From contig NC_092677.1 in NCBI RefSeq assembly GCF_964355755.1, forward strand, positions 16,834,101-16,898,100: DNA of 64,000 nucleotides, written 5' to 3'. The notes under the pieces were generated by a model. It saw only the letters and a program-made list of their open reading frames with translations. It ran no database searches and had not been told where the DNA came from. Below are positions 13,501-63,983 of this stretch, one piece after another; position 1 is the stretch's first letter; each line of letters starts with the position of its first letter. Source of the stretch: Antedon mediterranea (taxonomy: Eukaryota; Echinodermata; Crinoidea; Comatulida; Antedonidae). Position numbers and translations under genes: made by a program.

Positions 13501-16500
13501 ATTTTTAATCAAAATAAAACCGGTTTCTTATTTGGTAATTGTTCATGGTTGGTTCTGTAAACAACAGAGAGTAGTCTTGGTTTGTGACACTCAGAGACCA
13601 TGATAATACGTTAATAATTATTATAACATGGGTTCAAGGATGTAGCTGATCAGACGCGCTAAAATGAGTCACATGTCCGCTCTTTATTTTGTCAGTATCG
13701 TGCACGGGAGTGCAAAGAGTGCGCAGCATAACAGCACTCGGTGTGTAAATTTAAGAGTACAAACCAGGTCGTCTGCACCTCGGCCCTAATTTTTTTTAAA
13801 CAACACACACCACTGGTATCTGATCAATTCTGCTACATGACTGCTTTAAAAAAGCAAATCTTGGTGATTAAGACCAGTTCTTTTTTGTGTGGTCAAGGAA
13901 AACCCATTTTTAAAATGAAAGCTTTTAAAAAATCCTGCTCAATAGAAACAGGCCCCACAGAAGGTACTTTTAAACTGTGTACAGTACATTCAGTAACTCC
14001 ACCCAAATAAAACCAGCACAATGCTGGTAATGCACAGAAAACGTGGTTCATCGAATAACGCAGTAAATAATTTATATAAAAAAATGAGTGGGATGGGAAT
14101 TAATTCACCCATTCAACATTTTCAACCAGCAAAAGTACAAAGTAACGTATAGTATAAATTTATGAACAGTTAACTAGATAAAAATAATGTAATGGTAAAT
14201 ACTATTAACTGCAATACTACTGTATTTTTTTATTTCTTTTATTCAGTATATTACACAGAGGCGCCTTACAAGATGGAACCACCTTAGCTTCAAGGTGCCT
14301 CAGATTAACAAATACAATATTTTAAAACAACTAACAGAAACATCAATCAAATCTTCCAGAATTAACAAGAAATTGTTGTACATAATAAAATAATAAAGCA
14401 TTTTCACAATTCGAAAGAAGATCGGAACCAAAAATTAAAATTTCACTTAAAAATGTAAAATTAAATGTTAAAGAAAAATCCTTGGCTAAGATATCCTCAA
14501 TAATTGAGTTAGCGCTTACAAGTAGAATATCTCTTTGTGTATTATAATTAGGGCAGTAACATAAGAAATGAAGCGGATTCTCAACATTATAGCCACAAGT
14601 ACAATTTGGATTGTCCCGAAGTCCATGTAAGAATAAATGCGAATTGAGACAGCTGAAACCAAGTCGGATTCTAGTGTGAATTTGGTTAATCTTCTTATCA
14701 CCTGTATCATAATAAGAACGTTTTTTTGTTTTAAACAAATTGGATTTCAGTAGCAATTTTTTAAACTCAATAAGAGATGAGGAATTTTTTATTTCATTAT
14801 TTAACTCGTTCCAATGTGTATAATAGATGGGACAAAAGATAAACGATATGATGTGGTCTTACAAAATGGAATTATTATATTTCGGATGTTACGCGAGTTA
14901 TAAACTTCAATATTGTCAGAAAAATTAAATAAGGAGTAAAGATACACTGGTGTTAACTTATGAATAATTTTACTACTGTATCTGTAGTACCAGTAATTTT
15001 AGTATTGTTATAATACCACAAGGTTCCACAAAATGTACATCAATCAATATCATCAATAACCGCAATATCTGAATATCAACCAGCAACCATGGCTAAAAAT
15101 AATGTAAATCCTCTGGTTTAATCCCACCCCTCTAGAACACGAAATCCGGCTGACTTGGTGGTAGGACTATACCCGGTGGTGGGACTATACCCGGTGGTGG
15201 GACTATACCCGGTGGTGGGACTATACCCGGTGGTGGGACTATACCCGGTGGTGGGACTATACCCGGTGGTGGGACTATACCCGGTGGTGGGACTATACCC
15301 GGTGGTGGGACTATACCCGGTGGTGGGACTATACCCGGTGGTGGGACTATACCCGGTGGTGGGACTATACCCGGTGGTGGGACTATACCCGGTGGTGGGA
15401 CTATACCCGGTGGTGGGACTATACCCGGTGGTGGGACTATACCCGGTGGTGGGACTATACCCGGTGGTGGGACTATACCCGGTGGTGGGACTATACCCGG
15501 TGGTGGGACTATACCCGGTGGTGGGACTATACCCGGTGGTGGGACTATACCCGGTGGTGGGACTATACCCGGTGGTGGGACTATACCCGGTGGTGGGACT
15601 ATACCCGGTGGTGGGACTATACCCGGTGGTGGGACTATACCCGGGGAAACCCTGAAAAAAAATGATTGGTACAGTACTTTCTTGAATATATTGTTTGAAC
15701 GTTTGCGTGGCGAAATCAAATGTTGATATAAAGTTGAGTAACTCAACAGTTCTTCTCAGAACTAATACACGTGGTGTACCGCAAACTTTATATCAACAAT
15801 ACTTTCTTGAACTCATGAACTGGCTAGAGAGACGGAGGCCTACATCCAGACTAATAAGTCAATACTGGTACTTTATACCTGGGGATATGCCTAGTTTGTG
15901 AAATCAAACATAAAGTAGGGGATGAGATTAGACCTCAAGTGGACCTGATGGTTGTTGGTCCTTGGTCGGCGCAAAGTGGAAGCTCCCTATAAATCTGCCA
16001 ATGTGTACTGTCTGTAGGCAACAATACTTTAACAGCTCCTGTTGTCATGGGTGTTTTTCATTCAATGTTTGAATTTCTTTATAATATTTTATTTTTTAGA
16101 AAAATACAGTAGGACAGCTTCTATTCAGGGACACAAAGGGGAATTTTCCATGAAAAGGAGAAATATGTTTTATAGTTAACCTTTTTTAGGGGCCATCCCT
16201 AACTTAATAAGGAGACACTATTGATTCCTGGAGGAGTTCTCAAGGATTTCAATAAAAAAGTACTTTGATTTATACTTACAAATGCAAAGTGCTGCCAGTA
16301 ATCGAACAACACTTTCAGGTGTTTCACAATGACTTCCGAAGAATGGTTCCAATAGATATTGTCCAAAGGTAATGGCCACGATTGCTTGAGCAGTAGGGCG
16401 TATGATCAGGATAGTCACCCACAGTAAGAGGAAGGCTGGCAGTTGACCAAACGCAAGCAAGAAGTATGCGTAGTCTCCACCAGACATCTGAATAGCGGTT

Positions 16501-19498: not shown

Positions 19499-20491
19499 TC
19501 GTGATCTAAATATAGGGCGACAGATACAAGAGCTGGTAGCCATTTGTCCATGGTAAATTCTACTAAGTACTGCATACATACATAGACTATTCGTCTGTCA
19601 GTGGGCGTTTTCTAGTTCTACCTACCGTAAATATTCTATTAGTAAACACACTCTAAACACCCCCCCCCCCCTCCCCCTTCTAATAATAACCCACCTTATA
19701 AGTAACTATAATAATAAACCCACTACACTCCAATAATAGTAATCATAGGGGTTACTATGAGAGTCACAAAAACTATTGAAAAATGACACTATAAACCAAC
19801 ATTGTGGTTGCTTTTAACACGATTTATTTCTTAAAATAGGCAATAGGTCGATGATCTTTATGTGTATGTACTCCAGCTTAGTATGCCTCGACTATTGTTC
19901 CAGTTTTTGTTCAAAATAAGGATATTTTTATACAACCTTTAAAAGTTCATAAATCAATATTTTTTTCAATTTGTTTTCGGCCACAAGTAGTGACATAGCG
20001 ATAATGCATGTTGATCTTGTGAGTGAAGGGGGATTGAGTGTTTTTGAGTTTAATAAATAAAGTTTGAGTTCAACCAAATTTTTATATTCGTAGCCTAACT
20101 GTTTCATTATTTTCTATGAGTTGCTGACCGGGAAAGTTGGGGGTGGGTTACTATTTTCAGGTGAGGTGCCTAATTTAAGATTAGTAATAGCATGGAGAAA
20201 TCTAACTTATTTCTTCATGGTAATAGTAACCCACTACTGTAATAGTAACCGACCTTCTAATAGTAAGCCACCCTAAAAAATCAAAGATTAATACCCCCAG
20301 GGGTTACAATTAGAAGATTCCATTCCAAACAATTCCTTCTCTCTTTCTTCTTTAACAAGAAATATAGAGGGCGGTATTTAGGAAAATCCCAAACAAAAAC
20401 AACAAAGTTTGGATAAACCGCGACCATTTACAATTAATTTCAGACTGTTTTCTCAAAAAAATCTCAGACCGACTGCCACTATATAACTAAA

Positions 20492-23400
20492 ATGAGCATT
20501 TCAGAATACGTTGAAGATATATGGGATAAGGTGGGTTTGACAAGTTACGTATTTGACATTTAAATTTAGATGCAATTCTGAATGTAATGCTAGGCCTAGG
20601 CCTTATATACTGTATAATACCAAAACTGAGACAGCAAACTCGACTAAATCCACTCGCTTGCTGTTGCTCTGCAGTTGCAGGAAATGATCAGTCGGCCTAC
20701 CGAAAGAGCATATTATGCTACATCAATAAAAAAAAAAGAAGAATTTCCTATTATTAATAGCATATTGTGTGACATTATTATCTCTATAATTATTTATGAA
20801 TATTAATTATACAATTTTTTATTGTATTGAACCATGTTTCATGAGGGTAGACCTTCTACTATACTAGCTTAGAGCCCATCCATCCATCCAGCAACAAAGC
20901 TGATCATTTTATTTGGGGCCCTCGACAATACAACACAATACAAACAGTACAAAAATACATTATCATAAAAAAAAAATAATTATAAAAAACTACTATAAAT
21001 AAAGTTTTACATATCATTTAATGCATTCCTGGATCTGTACAGGAGTTGATTATCGCAATTATTGTTGAGGAACACTGGGTATAGGTATAGGCCTTTAATA
21101 ATAATATACATTTATATATATTTTTTCTTTGATTATTTACAGCCAAATTCCTGTATTCATTGTGGAGGTTTTTATGGTATCAACTACAAGGAGCCAGTAT
21201 GTTCCACTTGCCACGCATTCCTATATCCTCCATTACAAGTTGATGAGCCTCCATGTATTACAATAACAGGGGTATGTACCATTACAGTCAATATCAGCAG
21301 ATGCTGCAGTATCTTTTCTATCTATTTACAGTATATAAGTGGGTAGCTGTAAAAACAATAAATGGCACAGTCAACCATTCATTTTGTGCATAGCTTACCT
21401 TCTCCATAAATGGTACAGTCCAAAAACCATGCTCATAATCATGATCATCATTTCTTATCCAGGTATCCAACACTCAAAAACTAGCAACACTAATTGTTTG
21501 TTTTAATGTAGACATATCCAAAGTTTTCTATTGACACAATCAATCAACCATGTACCTACAGGTAGTTCCTTGTACCCTCAGATAGAACTACTGTAAGTGC
21601 ACAGTCAACTGTGCTAATAGAAAACAAGGGATCAAACAATTAATGGTTAAAGCCCCATTCCCTACGTTTTTTAGATCTAATTTAAGATCACAAACTATAT
21701 TTAATGTAAAAATAATACTATATGGTCCTATTGTGATAACTTTTTTCGTCTTTAAACGGTTAAAAATGTGAAAAATAAATCGATTTTAATAATTATAGCG
21801 GCCCGCTATGAATCCCAAAATGCATTGCGCGCGGATTGATATTTTTGTTTTTCACCTGTAATTTGCCCACTTTTCGATCGATCGTGAAGCCAAAACAAAT
21901 GGAAGACTCCTAACTTTTCAGCGAAAATACCGGGTTTTCCCCAATTTGTATCAACGGAGTCTGGCAAAAATAGAAAGACAATTAATGCAGCAACTATACA
22001 ACGTCAGGCTAGGTATATAGCTAGCGTATGATGTTCGTACGTTACCAATGTTTACCAGCTAGGCCTACAAAACTAAGCCTAGCTAGGCTAGGCCTGAGAC
22101 CGTCCACGAGAGGTCGATCGCCGCGAGCTACTTAGGTAGTGCATTGTTTCTCACTTTTTATCATAATTTACCATAAAACGTACATTTAAGACAAGGAATG
22201 ACATGGTTTAATGTTTTTAAAGTGATATATATGTATTATTTTCCAAAAAACGTCCAAAATTGCAGGGAAGGGGTCTTTAACCCTCCATCCCAAACATTGA
22301 CTATTGACACAATTGAACATGCCAATATAAAATAAAATTAATTTTTATTATATTCATTTTCATGCTGATCCTTATCCATAAGAATTTCCGATTTGGTGAC
22401 TGAAATTTACCTTAAGGCCTAATGTTTGTTTAAGAATAAATCAGTATTTATGGGAAAGATTATCCAGACTAACTACATTTTTTTCAAACCAGTCAAAGAT
22501 TATTGTTCCATTTAATGTGTAATATTTTTAAACTTCTTGCGCTAAACTTTCCTCTTTGTCCTGAAATACCAACAATTTCAAAGTTTTCCATGAATTCATT
22601 TTCAACAGCCTGAGTCATCAAGTGATGGAGAAGACTCTGGGACCGAAGAACCCACAGACTACATGTTTAAACGCAAGAAATTAATAAAAAGTCGGCAAAA
22701 GATTATCTTGTCACCTTTGACCGGTGAACTATCAGACCGCATAACAGCATTGTCACTGTACAAGCAGCATAATGATGTCATTGAGAATGGTATTGTAGAA
22801 AATTTGCCAAATGAAGGTGAGTTTACAGTATACTCTAGACATATTGCCATTTCTCATTTTCCACACCACTATGTTTATCCTTATCATTTGATTGGTTAAT
22901 TGTACATCATGTAATTATACAGTACAGTGGTGGTCTACTAGGCATGCTTTCCGCTACTGTATAATAAACATTAAAAAAAATATTTCTTTACAGTTATTAT
23001 TTTATTCATTATATTTGATTATATATAGATGTAGTTACTATTGGGAAATAAAAAAACAATTCTATATATTTTCAGTTCTTGAGAAGATCTTCTCTTACCT
23101 TGATGACCTGACAATGGCAGTGGTGCCACTGGTGTGCCAACGATGGCAGCAGGTTGCTTCAGACCATCACAGTATGGACTGTATTGAATGGGAAGAGGCT
23201 GTACACAGAAGATGGCCACTCTTTAAACCACAGTACCAAGTGAAATGTTGGAAAACATGCTTTACAAAACTGTAAGTGGTTGCTAGTAATAATCTTATTT
23301 TGTTTTAATTAAATAAGAGGTACTTCTCATGTCTTGTCTACTTACTGGTGCCTATAACCATGGACCTGGTCCATGCTATAACTGTTACTATTTAGGGCAT

Positions 23401-26400
23401 AAAGACAATGTTTAGACATAGTTTCCAAAACCAAAACTTTTAATTTTGTTGCTGAATATGCCATTTTAATGTCACCTCGATATTCACTTTGATCAAAAAT
23501 TTGATTGGAAAAAAAAATTATTTACCTGAAAAAACTGTAATAGTCATTTGGGTTTTGGTTTAATTTATTTTGTCTTTTTATAAGTGAAAACGTTAATTTA
23601 TATTACTGATCACACGAACCACTTTGTCAGATGTAACTCAGAGATTGTATGCTCTCTTTTCTGTGCTCGTTTACACAGTTAAAATACCATATAGTTGTAA
23701 AAAGGTTGCCTAGATTGTACAGTGTAATAAATACACAATAAACAGTGTGTATGATAAAATAGCTTCCTAAATAATTGCATTTACAGGTTTAAAGTTATCT
23801 TATGAACACAGTTAAAGTCCAAGTACCCGCATAGTTGTAAAAAAGTGGCCTAGATTGACAGGATAAAAAACACTTTTATATTATTTTCAGATTAGAAACA
23901 GTGCCTTGTAGGAAATGTATTGAGCAGATCAATATAGAGGTAAATCATTTGATTGATTTTGATAAATAAAAAGTGGTAACTTCTTAGGTATAAATTGTAA
24001 TGTAAAACAATCATTTAATCAGACCTTTTCTTTGTACTTTTTTTATATACATAATAGAAAAATAACGCTTAAAAAAGAACGACGTTTCGACTCCATCATG
24101 GGGTCATGTACTTTACAGTCTATGGCAAATTACGCTTGTGTTTTATACAAATATATTAGTTTTATTAAATTACTATGTTTTATACTTCAATAAACAAATA
24201 GAAATACAAATATTAATCCTAAGAAGCCCTGTTCATCAAAAAAAATAGAAATTTTATGGATTATGTCAACAAATTTTACTGCAATTTCAAGGAGAACTGC
24301 AATAAACCATGTGTATATTAATACCTGATGAAACTTCCTAAATAATTGCATAAATAGGTTTAAAATAGGAACAAATTTAGTGACTGCAGTAGAATTACAT
24401 CAGTACAAGCATAACAACTAGCTGTCTCAATGCTTAAAACAAAACACTTTTATGAGTTGCCTATAAGAAATAATCACCTGAAATTCTACTGATAAGGATA
24501 CAACATGACTATTTTAGCTGGTAGCATACTGGTCTACTTACATAACCTTCAATTATTTTTACCATACAGTACCAGTCATAATAAATTATCCTTGAAATAC
24601 TGTAAGTGGAACTAAACGTATCTTATACTGTATACAGTATTGTTTATATCTGCCAAGATCTTCATTGTTTTCTACTCATTCACCAGCCTGTTGCCTATCC
24701 TTTGCTTACTGTATATTCCAATCCACTCAGGCAGCTCGTGTCTACCTTATTCTTACTCGTCTCCAAGTACTCTTGAGTGAGTGAGTGGCCGAGCGGTTAA
24801 GATAGTGGAACAGTAATTACGTAGCCATAACATCGGCAGGGGTTCGAGGCTCACTCACTCCATGGTTCTGGTGGTAGAACGAGTCTTCTCGGATAAGGAC
24901 TATAAACCGTAGGTCCAATGTACACATCTAGCTCGTGTGCACTTTAAAGAACCTAGTACATCTTTCGAGACGAGTAAGGGGTTACCCCGGTGTATTAGTA
25001 CAGTACATCACAGCCACTGATCACCAACTGGGCCCTCTGGGAGATCAGTCTTTGACTGAAGAGGTTACCCAGTATAAATATAAATTTCAATCAAACAAGT
25101 ACTGTACACTAACTTGTCCTAAGGAAGGGTTAGTGCCACCCAAAAGCTCTGCAATTTCTTTCATTTCAGGCTCTTTTAATTGATCGTTTAATGTACTTCT
25201 TATTAATCGTATTTGTATCTCCATTAAGATCCAGCCACTGATACCCACATCATTGTATCACTATGCCTTTATATATACACATACAGTATAGGTAGAAACC
25301 TTTGTCAAGGGGTCTAATTTCATATAATATTTGTGTTTATTAAAAGCCTCAATTCTCACATACATTACAGTACATAGTTGACATAAATAAAGTAAAAAAA
25401 ACAAGAACAACGCACATATGGAAATGATACATAATGCTGTGTAATCAACCTATAAAAATCATGTATAATAATGCAGGTAGTAATAAATTTTGCTGATAAG
25501 TTACAGTAGGTCTATAAACTATATACCATTCTTGAATTTTCTTATCCGTAATAAAAGGCCTGGCATTAAAATACACTTATAAAGTACACTTATATAATAT
25601 AAGTTGTAAAATCTCATTGTACAACCAGCTACTACTGGTAAGAGAATGTAAAGATAGATAAACTAATCATACCCCAGTATTTATATGTTTTTGTTTTCTA
25701 TATACTGGGTGACCTTTTTCAGTGCAAGACTGATCTCTCTTATAGGGCCAAATACTGAACCATAAAGGCCCATTTACACTAGGACGATAACAATCGACGA
25801 TAAACAGATAAAGATGCATTTTTGTGTGTTCATCCTATAACTATAGGATGAACATGTATGCTTCCTTTAATGAAAATGATATTTTCGCACGTCTAATCAT
25901 AATGACGTCATGATAATTGTAAAACCTATAATATCGTGACAATACAATAATTTTATTGTTTGTATTAATCATGACGTCATTTGATTGGGTTTTAAAAATA
26001 TTATTGTTATCAAAGACAGCATAAATGATTATCATATTATAGTTCTAGAACGAAAACCTTTCTAACTTTTTTGCTTTATGTAAGAAAAGTGTATGTTTAT
26101 CTGTTTATCGACGATCGTTATCTTCATAGTGGAAATGGGCCTTTATATGGCAAAGTTTTTGAACCCATACCTAAGATAATGTCTTTAAATTATTAATAAT
26201 ATATGAACTCTTTTTTTTAGAATCGTACAAATAATGGTGGAATCCAATCATGGCGAGCAAGACGATTAAAAACAGAAATGAAAAACATCAGAATGGATCC
26301 ACCAGAAGGGGTTTTAGCTGTCCCATTGACTAAGAATTGCATCCACTGGCAGGCGTCAATTATAGGTCCACCAGACAGCCCATATGAGGGCGGTATTTTC

Positions 26401-27454
26401 TATTTACACTTGCAGCTAGCTAGCAGGTATTAGATTGCTCAAATTAAAACATTTTTAACCAATCATACTCAAGGAAATTTAGTTTCCATTTTAATTTGAA
26501 AAAAAAAATTGAGAAAGAAGGCAAATTTAATTACTGAAATAAATAACAGTTTGTACTTTGTACTACTTTATTTTATGATTTTTTCCAGTTATCCTATTAA
26601 ACCACCAATTGTGCATTTTATGACCAAGATCTTTCATCCAAACATCAGTTGCCATGGTGATGTTGGCATCGACTCTTTACATCATAACTGGAGTTTAGCA
26701 TTGACAATAACAAAGGTATTACTGTGGTACTATTTTTTTTTTTTTTTAAATAGCAGAGAGCTAACTGTATAAAAGGTCTTAACTTGGAAATGTGAAAGAT
26801 GATCAGGGGAATTTACGAAAGCATGGGCAAACATGCAAGGGTGAAATCGATCTAAAGCTCTGTCTACACTATCAAACTTTAGTTTAGTTTGTGATGTGCA
26901 CATATATGGTCACGATGACATACTAATTGGTCAAATCATCCTTTTTTTTTCAAACTAGTTTGATAGGCAAGACAGAGCTTTAGGCATCAGCATTTATTGT
27001 AAACAATAGGCTTAGCGGAAAATGTTAATACGCTTTTAGGGCCAAGTAGTAAAAAGAGACCAATAACAGAGTTTCAATCTTTTGTTGAATATTTCCAAAA
27101 ATTATATCTTTTACTTTTCAGGTGCTTATTAGTGTGCAGTCATTGCTTACGGATCCTTTTACAAAAGTTTGCATGGAACCCACGATAGGTGCCTTATATG
27201 AAAACAATCGTGAAGAGTTCAACAGAATTGCACAAGATTGGACATGGCGATATGCCATGATGGACATGGTGCGACCAGACGAGTTTAATGAGATAAAAAC
27301 ACAGAGTGACAGTGATGAGAACGATGAAAGTCACGAGATGATGTATTACAGAAAATATTGCACACATCGACGACCAATAAAACCATTTGATCCGATGGAG
27401 TTGCTTATTAGTGAGGATAACGTGATAGGGAATGCTGGTGGCCCGGCTGACTGA
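20492..27454 (+). CDS. morgue: Morgue homologue: zinc finger, F-box and catalytically dead E2-variant protein, complete, 428 aa
   Basis: Eight coding exons join with matching phases: 20492-20530, 21143-21271, 22609-22816, 23076-23271, 23891-23939, 26221-26426, 26589-26715, 27122-27454. The protein has a CxxC-CxxC zinc finger (Cys17, 20, 33, 36), an acidic linker and an F-box starting LPNEVLEKIFSYLDD (residues 122-136). A CRKC motif follows, then a ubiquitin-conjugating fold (about 210-360) with YEGGIFYLHL, the HPN motif (292-294) and a WSLALTITK block. The residue eight after the HPN Asn, where active E2s have Cys, is Gly302. This combination is the hallmark of Drosophila Morgue, an SCF-type ubiquitin-pathway protein that promotes turnover of DIAP1 in cell death. 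By family it should bind Skp1 through the F-box; the substrate here is unknown. The tail after the E2 fold is acidic (SDSDENDESHE). Confidence 0.9.
24775..25095 (+). mobile_element. tRNA-derived SINE, copy 1 (morgue intron 5)
   Basis: The head has a tRNA-like A box (TGGCCGAGCGGTTAAG) and B box (GGGGTTCGAGGC) with ends GAGTGAG and CTCACTC that can pair as an acceptor stem. The pattern is that of a Ser/Leu-type tRNA. A non-tRNA body follows (CCATGGTTCTGGTGGTAGAA, GGATAAGGACTATAAACC, TTCGAGACGAGTAAGGGG). A second copy sits at 39790. Orientation is plus, same as the host gene. The 3' limit is approximate. Confidence 0.75.
25765..26143. mobile_element. TA-flanked TIR element (MITE), 379 bp
   Basis: AAGGCCCATTTACACTA... 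on the left and the reverse complement of the right end (AAGGCCCATTTCCACTATG...) form inverted repeats of about 50 nt, flanked by TA. The arms include GATAAACAGATAAA. Internally there is a perfect palindrome GTTCATCCTATA/TATAGGATGAAC (25829-25854) and two TGACGTCA sites. It has no coding capacity and lies in morgue intron 5. Its tips resemble those of the element at 57866. Confidence 0.7.
26855..26980. mobile_element. Short TA-flanked MITE, 126 bp
   Basis: The ends AAGCTCTGTCT / AGACAGAGCTT are inverted and flanked by TA; next to them are ATCAAACTTTAG and the matching CTAGTTTGAT. The internal words GTGCACATATATGG and GATGACATACTA recur in related copies near 34600, 38650 and 45550. It sits in morgue intron 7. 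Confidence 0.65.
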
Positions 27455-28129
27455 ATTGGTATGGCCCGGCTGGCTGAATTGGTATTCCCCTTGCCAGAGC
27501 CGCCTTAAATTTTGCAATTTTCATGTGAACTCTTGGCCGGCTCGTAAACAATCATGTTATTGTTTAATCAAATAATAAAAAGATCCGATATTATTACAAA
27601 TTTGATTCACATTATGGTGCAAATGTAAGTTTGGACATAGAACACAAGCATCATTTTATCTGAACTGTTGCTTGTTTGGTCAAATTAGTGGGAACCAAGC
27701 CTAGTAGATTTTTACTTTGCTATAGCAGATTATTAAAAATAAACATTGTTTTCTGCTTTAATTACAAACACAATTGTATTATAGAATTTGTTTTAATGAA
27801 GAAACAAATTTATATTAAAAGGTGCAATAATAATAATTTTCTTTTTAAGTATACAAGTATGTTTGTAAGTAATCATTATATTAAATTAAAAACTTAACTT
27901 GCATTTTGTAGAAAAAGAAAATAAAATACTTAATTTCAATAAAACAAAACCAGTTGTTTGTTAAATTATTTAATCACACTGCAAAGAAATATTCTTGTTG
28001 GAAAAACCTTAGCATCAATAGATTGTAGGGTGTGTGCTGGTGAAAAATTTAAAATGGGTTGAAAATACTTTTCTGGGTCATTTCCTCAAAGAGGTGGAGA
28101 TCCCAATCGTTATGAACCAATTGAGATAT
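27455..28129. other. 3' flank of the morgue-type gene
   Basis: A short direct repeat of the stop-codon region (GGCCCGGCTGACTGAATTGGT then GGCCCGGCTGGCTGAATTGGT, 27440-27483) follows the stop. AATAAA-type polyadenylation candidates occur at about 27571 and 27939. The frames at 27676 and 28034 are not convincing. No gene seen. Confidence 0.5.
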
Positions 28130-28499: not shown

Positions 28500-28612
28500 A
28501 AACTAGAAATTATAGATATATTACCATAATTTGAAAATGGTTTTGGAATGTAGTTTTTAGACTGCAAAAGGCCAACAAGAAAAGAAATGACTTTACTCTT
28601 CATTGTAGTCCT

Positions 28613-29144
28613 GAACAGGGAGATAAGCGTCCCTGCCCACTGATGAGTTTGAACAGGGAGATAAGCGCCCCTGCCCACTGATGAGTTTGAACAGGGAGAT
28701 ATGCGCCCCTGCCCACTGATGAGTTTGAACAGGGAGATAAGCGCCCCTGCCCACTGATGAGTTTGAACAGGGAGATAAGCGCCCCTGCCCACTGATGAGT
28801 TTGAACAGGGAGATAAGCACCCCTGCCCACTGATGAGTTTGAACAGGGAGATAAGCGCCCCTGCCCACTGATGAGTTTGAACAGGGAGATAAGCACCCCT
28901 GCCCACTGATGAGTTTGAACAGGGAGATAAGCACCCCTGCCCACTGATGAGTTTGAACAGGGAGATAAGCGCCCCTGCCCACTGATGAGTTTGAACAGGG
29001 AGATAAGCGCCCCTGCCCACTGATGAGTTTGAACAGGGAGATAAGCACCCCTGCCCACTGATGAGTTTGAACAGGGAGATAAGCGCCCCTGCCCACTGAT
29101 GAGTTTGAACAGGGAGATAAGCGCCCCTGCCCACTGATGAGTTT
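28613..29144. repeat. 38-bp minisatellite, 14 tandem copies
   Basis: Fourteen uninterrupted units (14 x 38 = 532 bp) of GAACAGGGAGATAAGCGCCC followed by CTGCCCACTGATGAGTTT. Copies differ mainly by G/A at one site (AAGCG or AAGCA), with single changes in the first unit and in the third (ATATGCG). As 38 is not a multiple of three and the unit lacks stops on the minus strand, all three minus-strand frames stay open. These are repeat artefacts, not genes. There are no spacers, so it is not a CRISPR-like array. Confidence 0.95.
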
Positions 29145-49380: not shown

Positions 49381-50310
49381 TCACACAATAATATCTATTC
49401 TTGTTCTTCGTGGATTCAATTTCTTGCAAAGTAGCTCCTTCATAGATCTTCGAAATTCAGTAAGATGAAACCAATAAACAATTGGATTTATAAATGAATT
49501 TACAACTAAAACAATATATGTTATTGGCAAAACAAATTGGATAACTTCTGGAATATCTGAGCAGTTCATAAAAAGTCCAGAGAAAAAAACAAAAGTAACA
49601 CACATGTTTGGTCCCCATGTGAGCACATACACTGAAATAATAATAGCAAATGTTTTAAACAATTTTTTAAACTCTTCAATAACATTGATGCTTAAGTTTA
49701 CAGTAGGCCTAGTATGATTTTGTTTTAGTTTTATGTAGATATTGATGTACAGCAAAATAGTAGCTAACAATATAACCGAGAGAACTGAAGAAAACAACAA
49801 AAGGATACTATCTCTATCAACAATATATACAGTCAATATCCAGATAGATGGTAGTATTGCGATTGCGAATGCTACAAAAATGTAACGCTTGAGAGTTACA
49901 ATAACATTGTATCGTAGAGGTGCCCATACCAAAGCAATGGAACGATCAACAGCTATTGCAGCAATTGTCAATGCTGAAGACATAAACAGGCTGTTAGTAC
50001 TATAAGCAGTCAATAGAATAATTGGAGAATTATTGGCACTAAAAGCCAGTGATCCAGGCATTATTAATAAACTTGATGTTGCGTCAAAAATCGCTAGTAG
50101 GCCGATGAAGAGATTATGTATTTTACGTAATTTTTCATTAGTTGCGTATAAAATAATTACAAGTAGATTTCCAATAAAGCTAAATGGACATACACAGTAT
50201 AGCACCAGTCTTGCCTTATTCACGCTATCTTTATTCAAAATGCTGCCATACCAATCAGTAGCACTAGTACAATTTTCCATTTGATAGACTATTAATTTCT
50301 TTAGCTTCAA
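49381..50310 (-). CDS. Intronless rhodopsin-class GPCR, orphan, 309 aa
   Basis: A single uninterrupted frame with seven hydrophobic segments. Class A hallmarks are GNLLVI in helix 1 (Asn48), LLAIFDATSS in helix 2, DRS (122-124) in place of DRY followed by APLRY, LTWGPN in helix 6 (usual CWxP) and NSFINPIVYWF (NPxxY, 275-279) in helix 7, then a short helix 8. The N-terminus has a glycosylation site NCT (13-15); Met11 is an alternative start. The conserved Cys at the top of helix 3 and its partner in loop 2 are both missing and loop 2 is very short, which is unusual but known in some subgroups. The ligand cannot be predicted. Three broken relatives follow upstream on the same strand, so this is the survivor of a local array. 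Confidence 0.88.
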   Translation of the reverse strand: MKLKKLIVYQMENCTSATDWYGSILNKDSVNKARLVLYCVCPFSFIGNLLVIILYATNEKLRKIHNLFIGLLAIFDATSSLLIMPGSLAFSANNSPIILLTAYSTNSLFMSSALTIAAIAVDRSIALVWAPLRYNVIVTLKRYIFVAFAIAILPSIWILTVYIVDRDSILLLFSSVLSVILLATILLYINIYIKLKQNHTRPTVNLSINVIEEFKKLFKTFAIIISVYVLTWGPNMCVTFVFFSGLFMNCSDIPEVIQFVLPITYIVLVVNSFINPIVYWFHLTEFRRSMKELLCKKLNPRRTRIDIIV

Positions 50311-50646
50311 GTTTTCCTTTCTCTAATACTATTAGTCGTTCTTCTGTAGCCAGCAATGTAGTAAAGTGCTCTAATATTTTTCTTAATTTAGCTCGCTAAC
50401 TTGAGGTTTAGTTTGATTGACAGTTGATGGATGCTAATAATGTATTGATTTGATATGTGATATTAAGTGTAATATGCTAATTAACAAAACGTATTTTTAT
50501 ATATTAGCAAAAATCAATTAAATATTAAATAGTCTCTGAAATTGTATACACATTTTGATTTTACTTTAAAACTAATCATGCCTTTTAAAAGGTCTGTGAC
50601 CTCCTCAATAAGTGTTGCAGCCATTGGGAACATACTTGCAGTGGGC

Positions 50647-51037
50647 TTATAGTTTGACAATAATACAAAAAAATGTTGTCACCAGAGCAATTGAATGATC
50701 AATAGCTATTGCAAATGCTGAATATATTAGCAGGCTGTAAATACTACAAGCAGTTGCAAAAACAATTGGAGAATCTACATTATTCAGATTAAGTGATCCT
50801 GGCATAATCATTATGGTTGATGTTGAGTCGAAAATTGTTAATAAGCCGATGAAGAGATTCTGTATATTTAATAGTCTAATAATAATTACAAGTAGGTTCC
50901 TAATGAAACAAAATGAACAAAACAACCTTATTGATATTGTCATCTTTATTACCACAACTATACGAATTTGCAATACCAGTAACATTTTCCTTTTGTTACC
51001 AAATGCTGGGGTATACCAATTATTCTGTAGTTTTTAA
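50647..51037 (-). pseudogene. GPCR pseudogene fragment, helices 1-3
   Basis: Close to the intact receptor at 49381: RNLLVIII, NLFIGLLTIFDSTSTIMIMP, GSL and AIAIDHSIALV (DHS at the DRS position). The frame stops after helix 3. No helices 4-7 follow before the next gene. Non-functional. Confidence 0.8.
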
Positions 51038-51063
51038 TAGATTTGACACAGATAAAATATAAT

Positions 51064-51430
51064 TCATTTATATAATAAAGAATTACCATATATAAGATTG
51101 GGAGCGTGAGTATCAAAACTGACGTGATCCTGTAGCGCTTTAGTCATGACAAGGGCGTGATAACGAAGCGGCGCCCATAGTACTAGCACATTTGAACGAT
51201 CAATTGCCACAGCAGAAATTGTTAATGTAGCTGATAGGAATAGTCCATTATTAATGTATGACATTATGTATTATTAAATAAAAACATTAATGAGCTCGGT
51301 ATTATTAGTATAATTATTGTCATGTCAATCATCGCTTATAGCCCAATGAAGATGTTTTGTTTTTTTCTTTATCTTGGAGATCTGGAACGTAAAATGATCA
51401 CACGTAGGAAAGTAAACGCACTTAATATTA
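51064..51430 (-). pseudogene. GPCR pseudogene fragment, helices 2-3
   Basis: 51264-51064 reads LFLSATLTISAVAIDRS and APLRYHALVMTK, matching helix 3 and loop 2 of the intact receptor. Upstream, a stop-containing stretch (NIFIG, AMIDMTIIILIIPSSLMF) corresponds to helix 2. The rest is missing. Confidence 0.75.
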
Positions 51431-51674
51431 ACATCAATCTCAGTGTTTCCATTTATTCTTCATTGATTTCAGAAAACCAATAACTGAAACTACTGCAGTT
51501 GATTCTTATTTTGTCTTCTATTATTTTTATGTTTTTTATTTCAAAACTAAATTATCAATCGATCTTAACATTTTTACAGCACACACAAAGTATTTGTAAT
51601 AAATAATAATATATAATAATAACAACTTTACATAATAACGGATGCAAATAATATGCAAATAGACACACTAATTG

Positions 51675-52184
51675 TCATTTTTGTACAATAAAAACAATTG
51701 TAAAATATAGATATAGTCTGTGAGATGAAACCAGTAAACAATTGGATTTACAAAAGCATTTAAAATAACAAATATATAAGTAATTGGCATAATTAACTGC
51801 ATCACTTTTTCTATAACTTCGGAGCAGTGATGAAATAATGATAAAAAAAGATATCAAGATACATATATTTGGTCCCCATGAAAAGACAAAAATTGCAATA
51901 ATGGTGATGATATTATTTTTGAAAAATTTGTTAAATTCTTTAATTTCATTACCGGTACTATAATATAGTATTTCTGAAAAAACGTACACACATTATTATG
52001 TGTGTACGTTTGAACAATTTTGGCGAAGCTTCTTGTAGATGTTGATGTACATAAATATTTTACAAATCATTATTAGAAACGTTGTAAAAGAAATAATAAA
52101 AAAAGATAAATCCATTTCTGCTGCAAAAAAAACTACTGCAGAAACAGAAACAGGGCCTTTGTGGCATTTTTTAAATATTATCAC
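51675..52184 (-). pseudogene. GPCR pseudogene fragment, helices 5-7
   Basis: 52184-51996 holds a helix-5-like stretch ending IFMYINIYKKLRQN. After a break at a perfect 14-bp-arm palindrome (51980-52011), 51989-51675 holds EIKEFNKFFKN, AIFVFSWGPNICILI (helix 6) and a frame-shifted helix 7. The helix 6 SWGPN matches TWGPN of the intact gene. The palindrome may have disrupted the gene. Confidence 0.78.
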
Positions 52185-62114: not shown

Positions 62115-63983
62115 TTATAGTATTGTGTATTTAGACTTGTTGTCTAGTTTTATTTCCTTTTCAAGCAAAAATTTATTGAAATAACTTTGTACACGGGATA
62201 ATACTTTAGCATTCTCTATCACAGACAGATTTGGTGTGTATGCAATAATACTCAATAATGTGTTGACTTCTCTCTTTGATTTAAACTTTGTACCCTTCAA
62301 GTCTAAAGTATGAAGATTGACATAACATACACCGTCTTTCCATAGAGCACGGGCCCACCTTTCCAGAAAGTACATTTGGTCTTTTGTTGGAAGAGGTTGG
62401 ATTGTCAACTTTTTTATTTGAGGAAGATCTACAAGCAATCTTGGAAAAGAAGGCAGATCGATTTGTCTATTAACATGAGTATTAATATCTGTCAAACTTG
62501 TCAAACGCAGTCTGGAAGGACTAAGACAGACTTCATCATACAAATTCCAAACTGACTTTAATTCACATGCCATATTTTTGTACTGCTCATCTTCAAATGG
62601 TAATAACCATTCATTTCCGTAGTGCCCAGGCCTGCTGCCAATTGACAAGTTTGTGCATTCATGTTTCATGTAACCAGTTTGTTGACAAGCAATTTCTGTT
62701 ATGTCTTCTAGTACGTCTTTTGCCTTTTCGTCCACATCTGTTTCTTCTATAAAAGCAATGTTTTTGTACTGCTCATCTTGAAATGTTAATAAACCTCTAG
62801 GACTGTTTCTTTCTTCTAAGTTGTAGTGCTCGGGCCTACTGTAAATTGGTAAGTTTGTGCATTCATGTTTCATGTAACCGGTTTGTAGACAATGACCTTC
62901 TGGTGTTATGTCTCCTAATACGTATTTCGAATTTTCCTCCACGGCTGTTTCTTCCATAAAAGTATTGTTCTTGTACTGCTCATCTTGAAATGAATTTAAG
63001 CCTTCAGGAGTGTTTCTTTCTTCTAAGTTGTAGTGCTCAGGCCTACTGTAAATTGGTAAGTTTGTGCATTCATGTTTCATGTAACCGGTTTGTAGACAAT
63101 GACCTTCTGGTGTTATGTCTCCTAATACGTATTTCGAATTTTCCTCCACGGCTGTTTCTTCCATAAAAGTAGTGTTCTTGTACCGCTGATCTTGAAATGA
63201 ATTTAAGCCTTCAGGAGTGTTTCTTTCTTCAAAATTGCATTGCTCATGCCTACTGTCAATTGGCAAATTTGCGCATTCATGTTTCATGAAACCGATTTGT
63301 AGACAAGGACTTTCTGGTGTTATGTATTCTAATACGTATTTTTCCTTTTCATCTACAGCTGTTTGTTCCATAAAAGCAATGTTTTTGTACTGCTCTTCTT
63401 GAAATGTTAATACTCCTTTAGGAATGTTTTCTGCCCCTAAATTGTAGTGCTCAGGCCTACTGTCAGGTGGCAAATTTGCGCATTCATGGTTCATGTAACC
63501 CGTTTGTAGACAGGGACTTTCTGATTTTATGTCTTCTAATACATATTTTGCGTTTTCATCTACAGCTGTTTTTTCTATAAAAGCAATGTTCTTGTACTGC
63601 TTATCTTGAAATGTTAATAAGCCTTCAGGAGTGTTTCTTTCTTCTAAATTGCAGTGCTCAGACCTACTGTCATTTGGCAAAGTTGCGCCTTCATGTTTCT
63701 TGTAACCGGTTTGTAGACAATGGATTTTTGATTTGATGTCTTCTAATACGCATTTTTCTTTTTCATCCACATCTGTTTCTGCCATAAAGTCTATGCTGTC
63801 TAGATCCTTAAAGCATTCTGCTGATCTATCAAGCAACGTTGCCACATTTCTCAGGAATTTACAATTACCACCTTCATCGAATCGAATTCGTTTTACCCAC
63901 AATAAATTTATCAACATAGAAGGATCTTTTCCAAGTTTGATATGAACATTTTTGAAGGCTGGAGAACTAGGTGCCAGTTGCAT
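62115..63983 (-). CDS. Unrecognised protein with six 69-residue repeats and a possibly leucine-rich C-terminus; 5' part off the window
   Basis: A continuous 622-codon frame. The frame stays open upstream of the ATG at 63983 to the window edge, so the true start is probably outside. A possible acceptor (TTCTCCAG, about 63951) could also begin the exon. I do not recognise the family. Residues 1-64 include LLWVKRIRFDEGG. Residues 65-470 are six repeats of about 69 residues built on TAVDEKEKYVLEDI, CLQTGYMKHEC, NLPIDSRPEHYNLEERNTPE and FQDEQYKN, acidic and with two near-invariant Cys. Residues 471-622 (LPSFPRLLVDLPQIKKLTIQ, VNLHTLDLKGTKF, YTPNLSVIENAKVL) look like leucine-rich repeats. A host gene is likely because of its length and clean frame. 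Confidence 0.7.
   Translation of the reverse strand: MQLAPSSPAFKNVHIKLGKDPSMLINLLWVKRIRFDEGGNCKFLRNVATLLDRSAECFKDLDSIDFMAETDVDEKEKCVLEDIKSKIHCLQTGYKKHEGATLPNDSRSEHCNLEERNTPEGLLTFQDKQYKNIAFIEKTAVDENAKYVLEDIKSESPCLQTGYMNHECANLPPDSRPEHYNLGAENIPKGVLTFQEEQYKNIAFMEQTAVDEKEKYVLEYITPESPCLQIGFMKHECANLPIDSRHEQCNFEERNTPEGLNSFQDQRYKNTTFMEETAVEENSKYVLGDITPEGHCLQTGYMKHECTNLPIYSRPEHYNLEERNTPEGLNSFQDEQYKNNTFMEETAVEENSKYVLGDITPEGHCLQTGYMKHECTNLPIYSRPEHYNLEERNSPRGLLTFQDEQYKNIAFIEETDVDEKAKDVLEDITEIACQQTGYMKHECTNLSIGSRPGHYGNEWLLPFEDEQYKNMACELKSVWNLYDEVCLSPSRLRLTSLTDINTHVNRQIDLPSFPRLLVDLPQIKKLTIQPLPTKDQMYFLERWARALWKDGVCYVNLHTLDLKGTKFKSKREVNTLLSIIAYTPNLSVIENAKVLSRVQSYFNKFLLEKEIKLDNKSKYTIL
62574..63791 (-). repeat. 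207-bp coding tandem repeat, six units
   Basis: DNA underlying the six 69-residue repeats. Units 4 and 5 (about 62790-63203) are almost identical over the full period, for example ACAATGACCTTCTGGTGTTA at both 62888 and 63095. The outer units are more diverged and the sixth is shortened by seven codons. All length changes keep the frame, which supports coding selection. Confidence 0.9.

Follow-up and report, generated by a model that had tools for sequence, protein, structure and literature searches.

The window (the whole stretch of 64,000 nucleotides that was analysed) carries a gene of eight predicted exons on its plus strand, which is read from an ATG at position 20492 to a TGA at 27452-27454 and codes for a predicted protein of 428 amino acids. 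The preliminary description had claimed a complete gene of this length with eight phase-consistent exons, and its coordinates were confirmed base for base. All exon joins have a GT donor and an AG acceptor, and with exon entry phases of 0, 0, 0, 1, 2, 0, 2, and 0 the 428 codons and the TGA are read in phase. An in-frame stop is located 5' of the ATG at 20435, candidate AATAAA signals occur 3' of the stop codon from 27574 on, and the GC content is 41% in the coding sequence versus 32% in the introns. The gene and the repeat within its intron 5 are composed as follows.

20492-20530, plus strand: exon 1, amino acids 1-13; start codon is the first ATG in the ORF; donor GTGGGT
21143-21271, plus strand: exon 2, amino acids 14-56; C4 zinc finger; symmetrical (phase 0-0)
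22609-22816, plus strand: exon 3, amino acids 57-125; acidic/basic linker and start of the F-box
23076-23271, plus strand: exon 4, amino acids 126-190; F-box (Pfam 120-156) and Trp-rich C-terminal extension with W149, W164, W172, and W184
23891-23939, plus strand: exon 5, amino acids 191-207; CxxC (197-200) between F-box and E2
24770-25090, plus strand: dispersed repeat in intron 5, about 320 bp; copies on C1-C10
26221-26426, plus strand: exon 6, amino acids 208-276; N-terminal part of the E2-variant domain
26589-26715, plus strand: exon 7, amino acids 276-318; E2 core with HPN (292-294) and Gly302 replacing the catalytic Cys
27122-27454, plus strand: exon 8, amino acids 319-428 and stop; C-terminal E2 helices and acidic tail

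The locus lies at 16.85 Mb on a chromosome-scale contig of 28.6 Mb (C8) in an assembly of 354 Mb and 18 contigs. When the protein was compared with the whole genome, six matches (E 4.6e-24 to 5.3e-71) fell at the locus itself and covered residues 12-193 and 206-428. All remaining matches were ordinary E2 domains with E values of 5e-10 or weaker, and thus the gene is single copy in this assembly. The copies of the intron 5 repeat are 96-97% identical and reside on ten chromosomes (40 of the 2,689 first-look candidates were scored). As its start resembles a tRNA (TGAGTGGCCGAGCGGTTAAG...GGTTCGAG), this repeat probably is a tRNA-derived SINE. Two MITE-like elements with terminal inverted repeats are found in intron 5 (25762-26146; 62 nt arms, 87% complementary) and intron 7 (26852-26983; 27 nt arms, 89% complementary), and the stop codon sits in a two-copy, 23-bp tandem duplication (27439-27485). 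Further afield, the window contains near-perfect minisatellites of 18 bp x 27 (15157-15644) and 38 bp x 14 (28612-29144), a 207-bp satellite with 5.7 copies (62619-63788), and on the minus strand an intact rhodopsin-family GPCR exon (49381-50322), accompanied by similar-looking, apparently decayed fragments (50647-51992).

The protein is organised as the preliminary description had claimed, with a CxxC-CxxC finger, an F-box, and an E2 fold containing HPN. The N-terminal C4 finger, C17-x2-C20-x12-C33-x2-C36, is encoded by an exon of its own. Its spacing corresponds exactly to the CX2CX12CX2C that begins the published signature of Morgue, in which the finger is followed by an F-box with typically five conserved tryptophans and by an E2-variant (UEV) domain whose catalytic Cys has become Gly (PMC3787007). 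No Pfam model exceeded the cut-off in the finger region, and this assignment is therefore based on the exact published spacing within an in-phase exon. The weak C1-domain and zinc-ribbon scores of the finger fell short of every cut-off (PKC-alpha, E 1.1) and were disregarded; the finger exon folded alone reached a mean pLDDT of 45, too low to be informative. The central F-box was recognised by the Pfam models F-box-like (residues 120-156, E 2.2e-10) and F-box (E 2.8e-7). Compared with the published description, the F-box region holds four tryptophans, the four on exon 4, and W218 lies beyond this region.

The E2 domain matches Pfam UQ_con at residues 222-358 with an E value of 2.1e-39. Judged from these profile matches, chance is excluded as the source of the predicted F-box and E2 domains. 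Among the best 60 solved chains, the nearest relatives of the E2 domain all are UBE2D (best E 1e-43), and an ungapped alignment of 144 residues shows 46% identity to UBE2D2. In this alignment, Asn77 of the HPN motif and Asp87 are kept, whereas C85G, D117V, P95L, F62I, K8T, and S22L are changes. In UbcH5, Phe62, Pro95, and Lys8 are RING-contact residues, and Ser22 belongs to the backside ubiquitin surface. The pattern fits a non-catalytic state, in which the RING and backside surfaces would be altered and the contact with RING ligases would be weakened. The catalytic cysteine of active E2 enzymes such as UBE2D (Cys85 in UBE2D2) is replaced by Gly302, and as predicted from its sequence the protein cannot itself carry ubiquitin as a thioester. 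An active-site Gly has been found in no UEV other than Morgue (PMC3787007).

Several lines of evidence concern the organism in which this gene resides. Two tektin exons score 175 and 211 bits against chains of the structure 8snb, a sea-urchin sperm doublet, versus at most 136 and 135 bits against the tektin chains of other entries, and hence these tektins are far closer to sea urchin than to mammal. About 150 exon matches to GT29 sialyltransferases were listed genome-wide, whereas protostomes usually have none to one such gene. This family has undergone a very large expansion, and many of its members are clustered, for example at C9:6.93-7.21 Mb and C7:20.77-20.89 Mb. Mitochondrial COX1 was not found in the assembly, and a pattern for the 5' part of 18S had no match. 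A search of the whole genome with a back-translated pattern, for which about 1e-6 exact matches would be expected by chance, retrieved one zero-mismatch site at C5:24566751. It encodes the exact crinoid L-type SALMFamide GLRFHKGAPFGKR (GLRFHKGAPF-Gly-Lys-Arg) in a frame that is open, follows a splice acceptor, and reads ...NPTRGLRFHKGAPFGKR... A peptide with the C-terminus GLRFHKGAPF-NH2 is encoded by each of the three crinoids that have been studied, and SALMFamides are known only from echinoderms (PMC9793003). The SALMFamide, the tektins, and the GT29 count agree that the genome is that of a crinoid echinoderm and thus of a deuterostome, which bears out and narrows the earlier suggestion of a probable invertebrate deuterostome.

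The published finger spacing and Gly302 at the E2 active site, two diagnostic details that were absent from the preliminary description, identify the gene as Morgue and not as a look-alike. The Morgue-type gene claimed there is thereby supported, because domain order, finger spacing, and the Cys-to-Gly exchange all match the published definition. With a probability of roughly 85%, we regard this single-copy crinoid gene as an orthologue of Morgue, orthology being predicted from the published diagnostic features. Morgue of Drosophila melanogaster has the same N-terminal CX2CX12CX2C finger, central F-box with Trp-rich segment, and C-terminal E2 variant with an active-site Gly, but the host of the new protein is a deuterostome and its F-box region contains four instead of five tryptophans. 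The active-site Gly is residue 302 in the crinoid and 421 in the fly protein, and so the part preceding this Gly is shorter in the crinoid. The E2 fold, HPN, and Asp87 are shared with UBE2D (UbcH5), which in contrast retains Cys, Asp117, Phe62, and Pro95 where crinoid Morgue has Gly, Val, Ile, and Leu, respectively, and lacks the additional finger and F-box. UBE2V/MMS2 and TSG101 likewise possess a dead E2 fold, which should bind ubiquitin but not conjugate it. However, these proteins have no F-box, and among the best 60 solved chains crinoid Morgue matches UBE2D best instead.

As the exon joins were predicted from DNA alone, and the 2.3-kb intron 5 exceeds all others in length and harbours repeats, a zinc-finger/F-box gene and a separate E2-variant gene might have been wrongly joined across this intron. 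Such an error is very improbable, since phase is kept at every junction, exon 6 is preceded by an AG acceptor and offers no in-frame ATG before the E2 domain begins, and the joined order is exactly that of Morgue. Exon shuffling within crinoids could also have fused an F-box gene with a UBE2D-like E2 and thereby converged on Morgue. The symmetrical finger exon, the start of the E2 near an exon boundary, and the array of UBE2D-like copies in the genome would be in line with this scenario, as would one intron of the Morgue E2 that lies one base from an intron in the UBE2D-like genes (K101/V102). However, an independent assembly would have to arrive at the same C4 spacing, domain order, and Cys-to-Gly exchange all at once, and the 46% identity to UBE2D2 argues against recent copying from the UBE2D-like genes of this genome; we consider convergence highly unlikely. 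A fused copy from the local array was rejected as the source of the E2 domain also because just one of its two introns is near a UBE2D-like intron. The array itself (C6:29497147-29545280) comprises about four genes that differ in orientation; where their introns were read, these lie at K66/V67 and within V102.

Horizontal transfer or contamination of the assembly, with a protostome as the source, must be weighed because many protostomes, such as myzostomid worms and copepods, live on crinoids as symbionts and the family has been listed from protostomes only (PMC3787007). This origin is hardly credible, however, for a gene located on a chromosome-scale contig. Its intron 5 repeat recurs at high identity on ten chromosomes of the same genome, which argues that the gene is not contamination, and the eight exons with ordinary introns reveal no sign of an old transfer at the DNA level. 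Vertical descent of the crinoid Morgue gene is likely.

The function of Morgue has been addressed in Drosophila, where SkpA and Lys48 polyubiquitin co-purify with the protein, and ubiquitin binding involves several of its regions. Because the same parts are intact in the crinoid and in the fly protein, the most likely reading, which we favour with some reserve, is that crinoid Morgue would act as a substrate receptor of an SCF (Skp1-Cullin-F-box) ligase with a built-in ubiquitin-holding module. By analogy with Drosophila, the F-box would dock the protein on Skp1 in the SCF complex, and the dead E2 together with the C4 finger would hold ubiquitin or, as in the fly, Lys48-linked polyubiquitin. 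Substrates or growing chains might thereby be gripped at the ligase, and Morgue itself would conjugate no ubiquitin. Overexpression phenotypes in Drosophila needed neither the F-box nor the active-site residue of Morgue (PMC3787007), and because the F-box was dispensable in these tests the SCF mechanism is unproven even in the fly. The role in cell death is established in Drosophila only, where it was demonstrated using Reaper and Grim, two death activators of insects. It should therefore not be assumed for the crinoid protein, and a function in apoptosis does not transfer automatically from one to the other.

BIR (IAP-type) domains are present in the crinoid genome. Two loci (C3:17075000-17084900 and C9:14168000-14177900) share 98.7% identity along 9.6 kb or more. 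Each contains an uninterrupted IAP frame with a triple BIR and a RING (E 5e-47), a region with weak similarity to protein kinases, and further long ORFs to which no Pfam model matched. By its appearance, this could be a large element of mobile or endogenous virus-like nature; IAP genes occur in herpes-like viruses of molluscs. Other multi-BIR copies are located at C3:25.29, C4:16.58, C4:16.72, and C9:13.67 Mb.

Crinoids are the sister group of all other living echinoderms. Apart from one potential exception, the survey of Zhou and colleagues from 2009 (Mol Biol Evol) reportedly found Morgue in neither echinoderms nor hemichordates nor chordates, and our literature search retrieved no open paper that joined Morgue and ubiquitin with echinoderms or with deuterostomes. 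Morgue has been listed only from Lophotrochozoa, Platyzoa, and Ecdysozoa (PMC3787007). If the gene was inherited vertically, its presence in a crinoid means that the architecture predates the split of protostomes and deuterostomes. Finding the gene complete and with almost all diagnostic features in a crinoid shifts its likely origin to the bilaterian ancestor, which would mean that it was lost repeatedly. Morgue probably dates back to the last common ancestor that protostomes share with deuterostomes; crinoids would have kept it, and most other deuterostomes would have lost it. Quite possibly, public databases already contain an unnamed Morgue sequence from Anneissia japonica, an annotated crinoid. 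The family as such is known, and the interest of the crinoid gene is its place in the tree. If this history is true, Morgue would be a conserved part of the bilaterian ubiquitin pathway rather than a protostome invention tied to cell death of the insect type. The crinoid protein also makes it possible to study, away from the cell-death pathway of insects, what purpose the combination of an F-box with a dead E2 serves.
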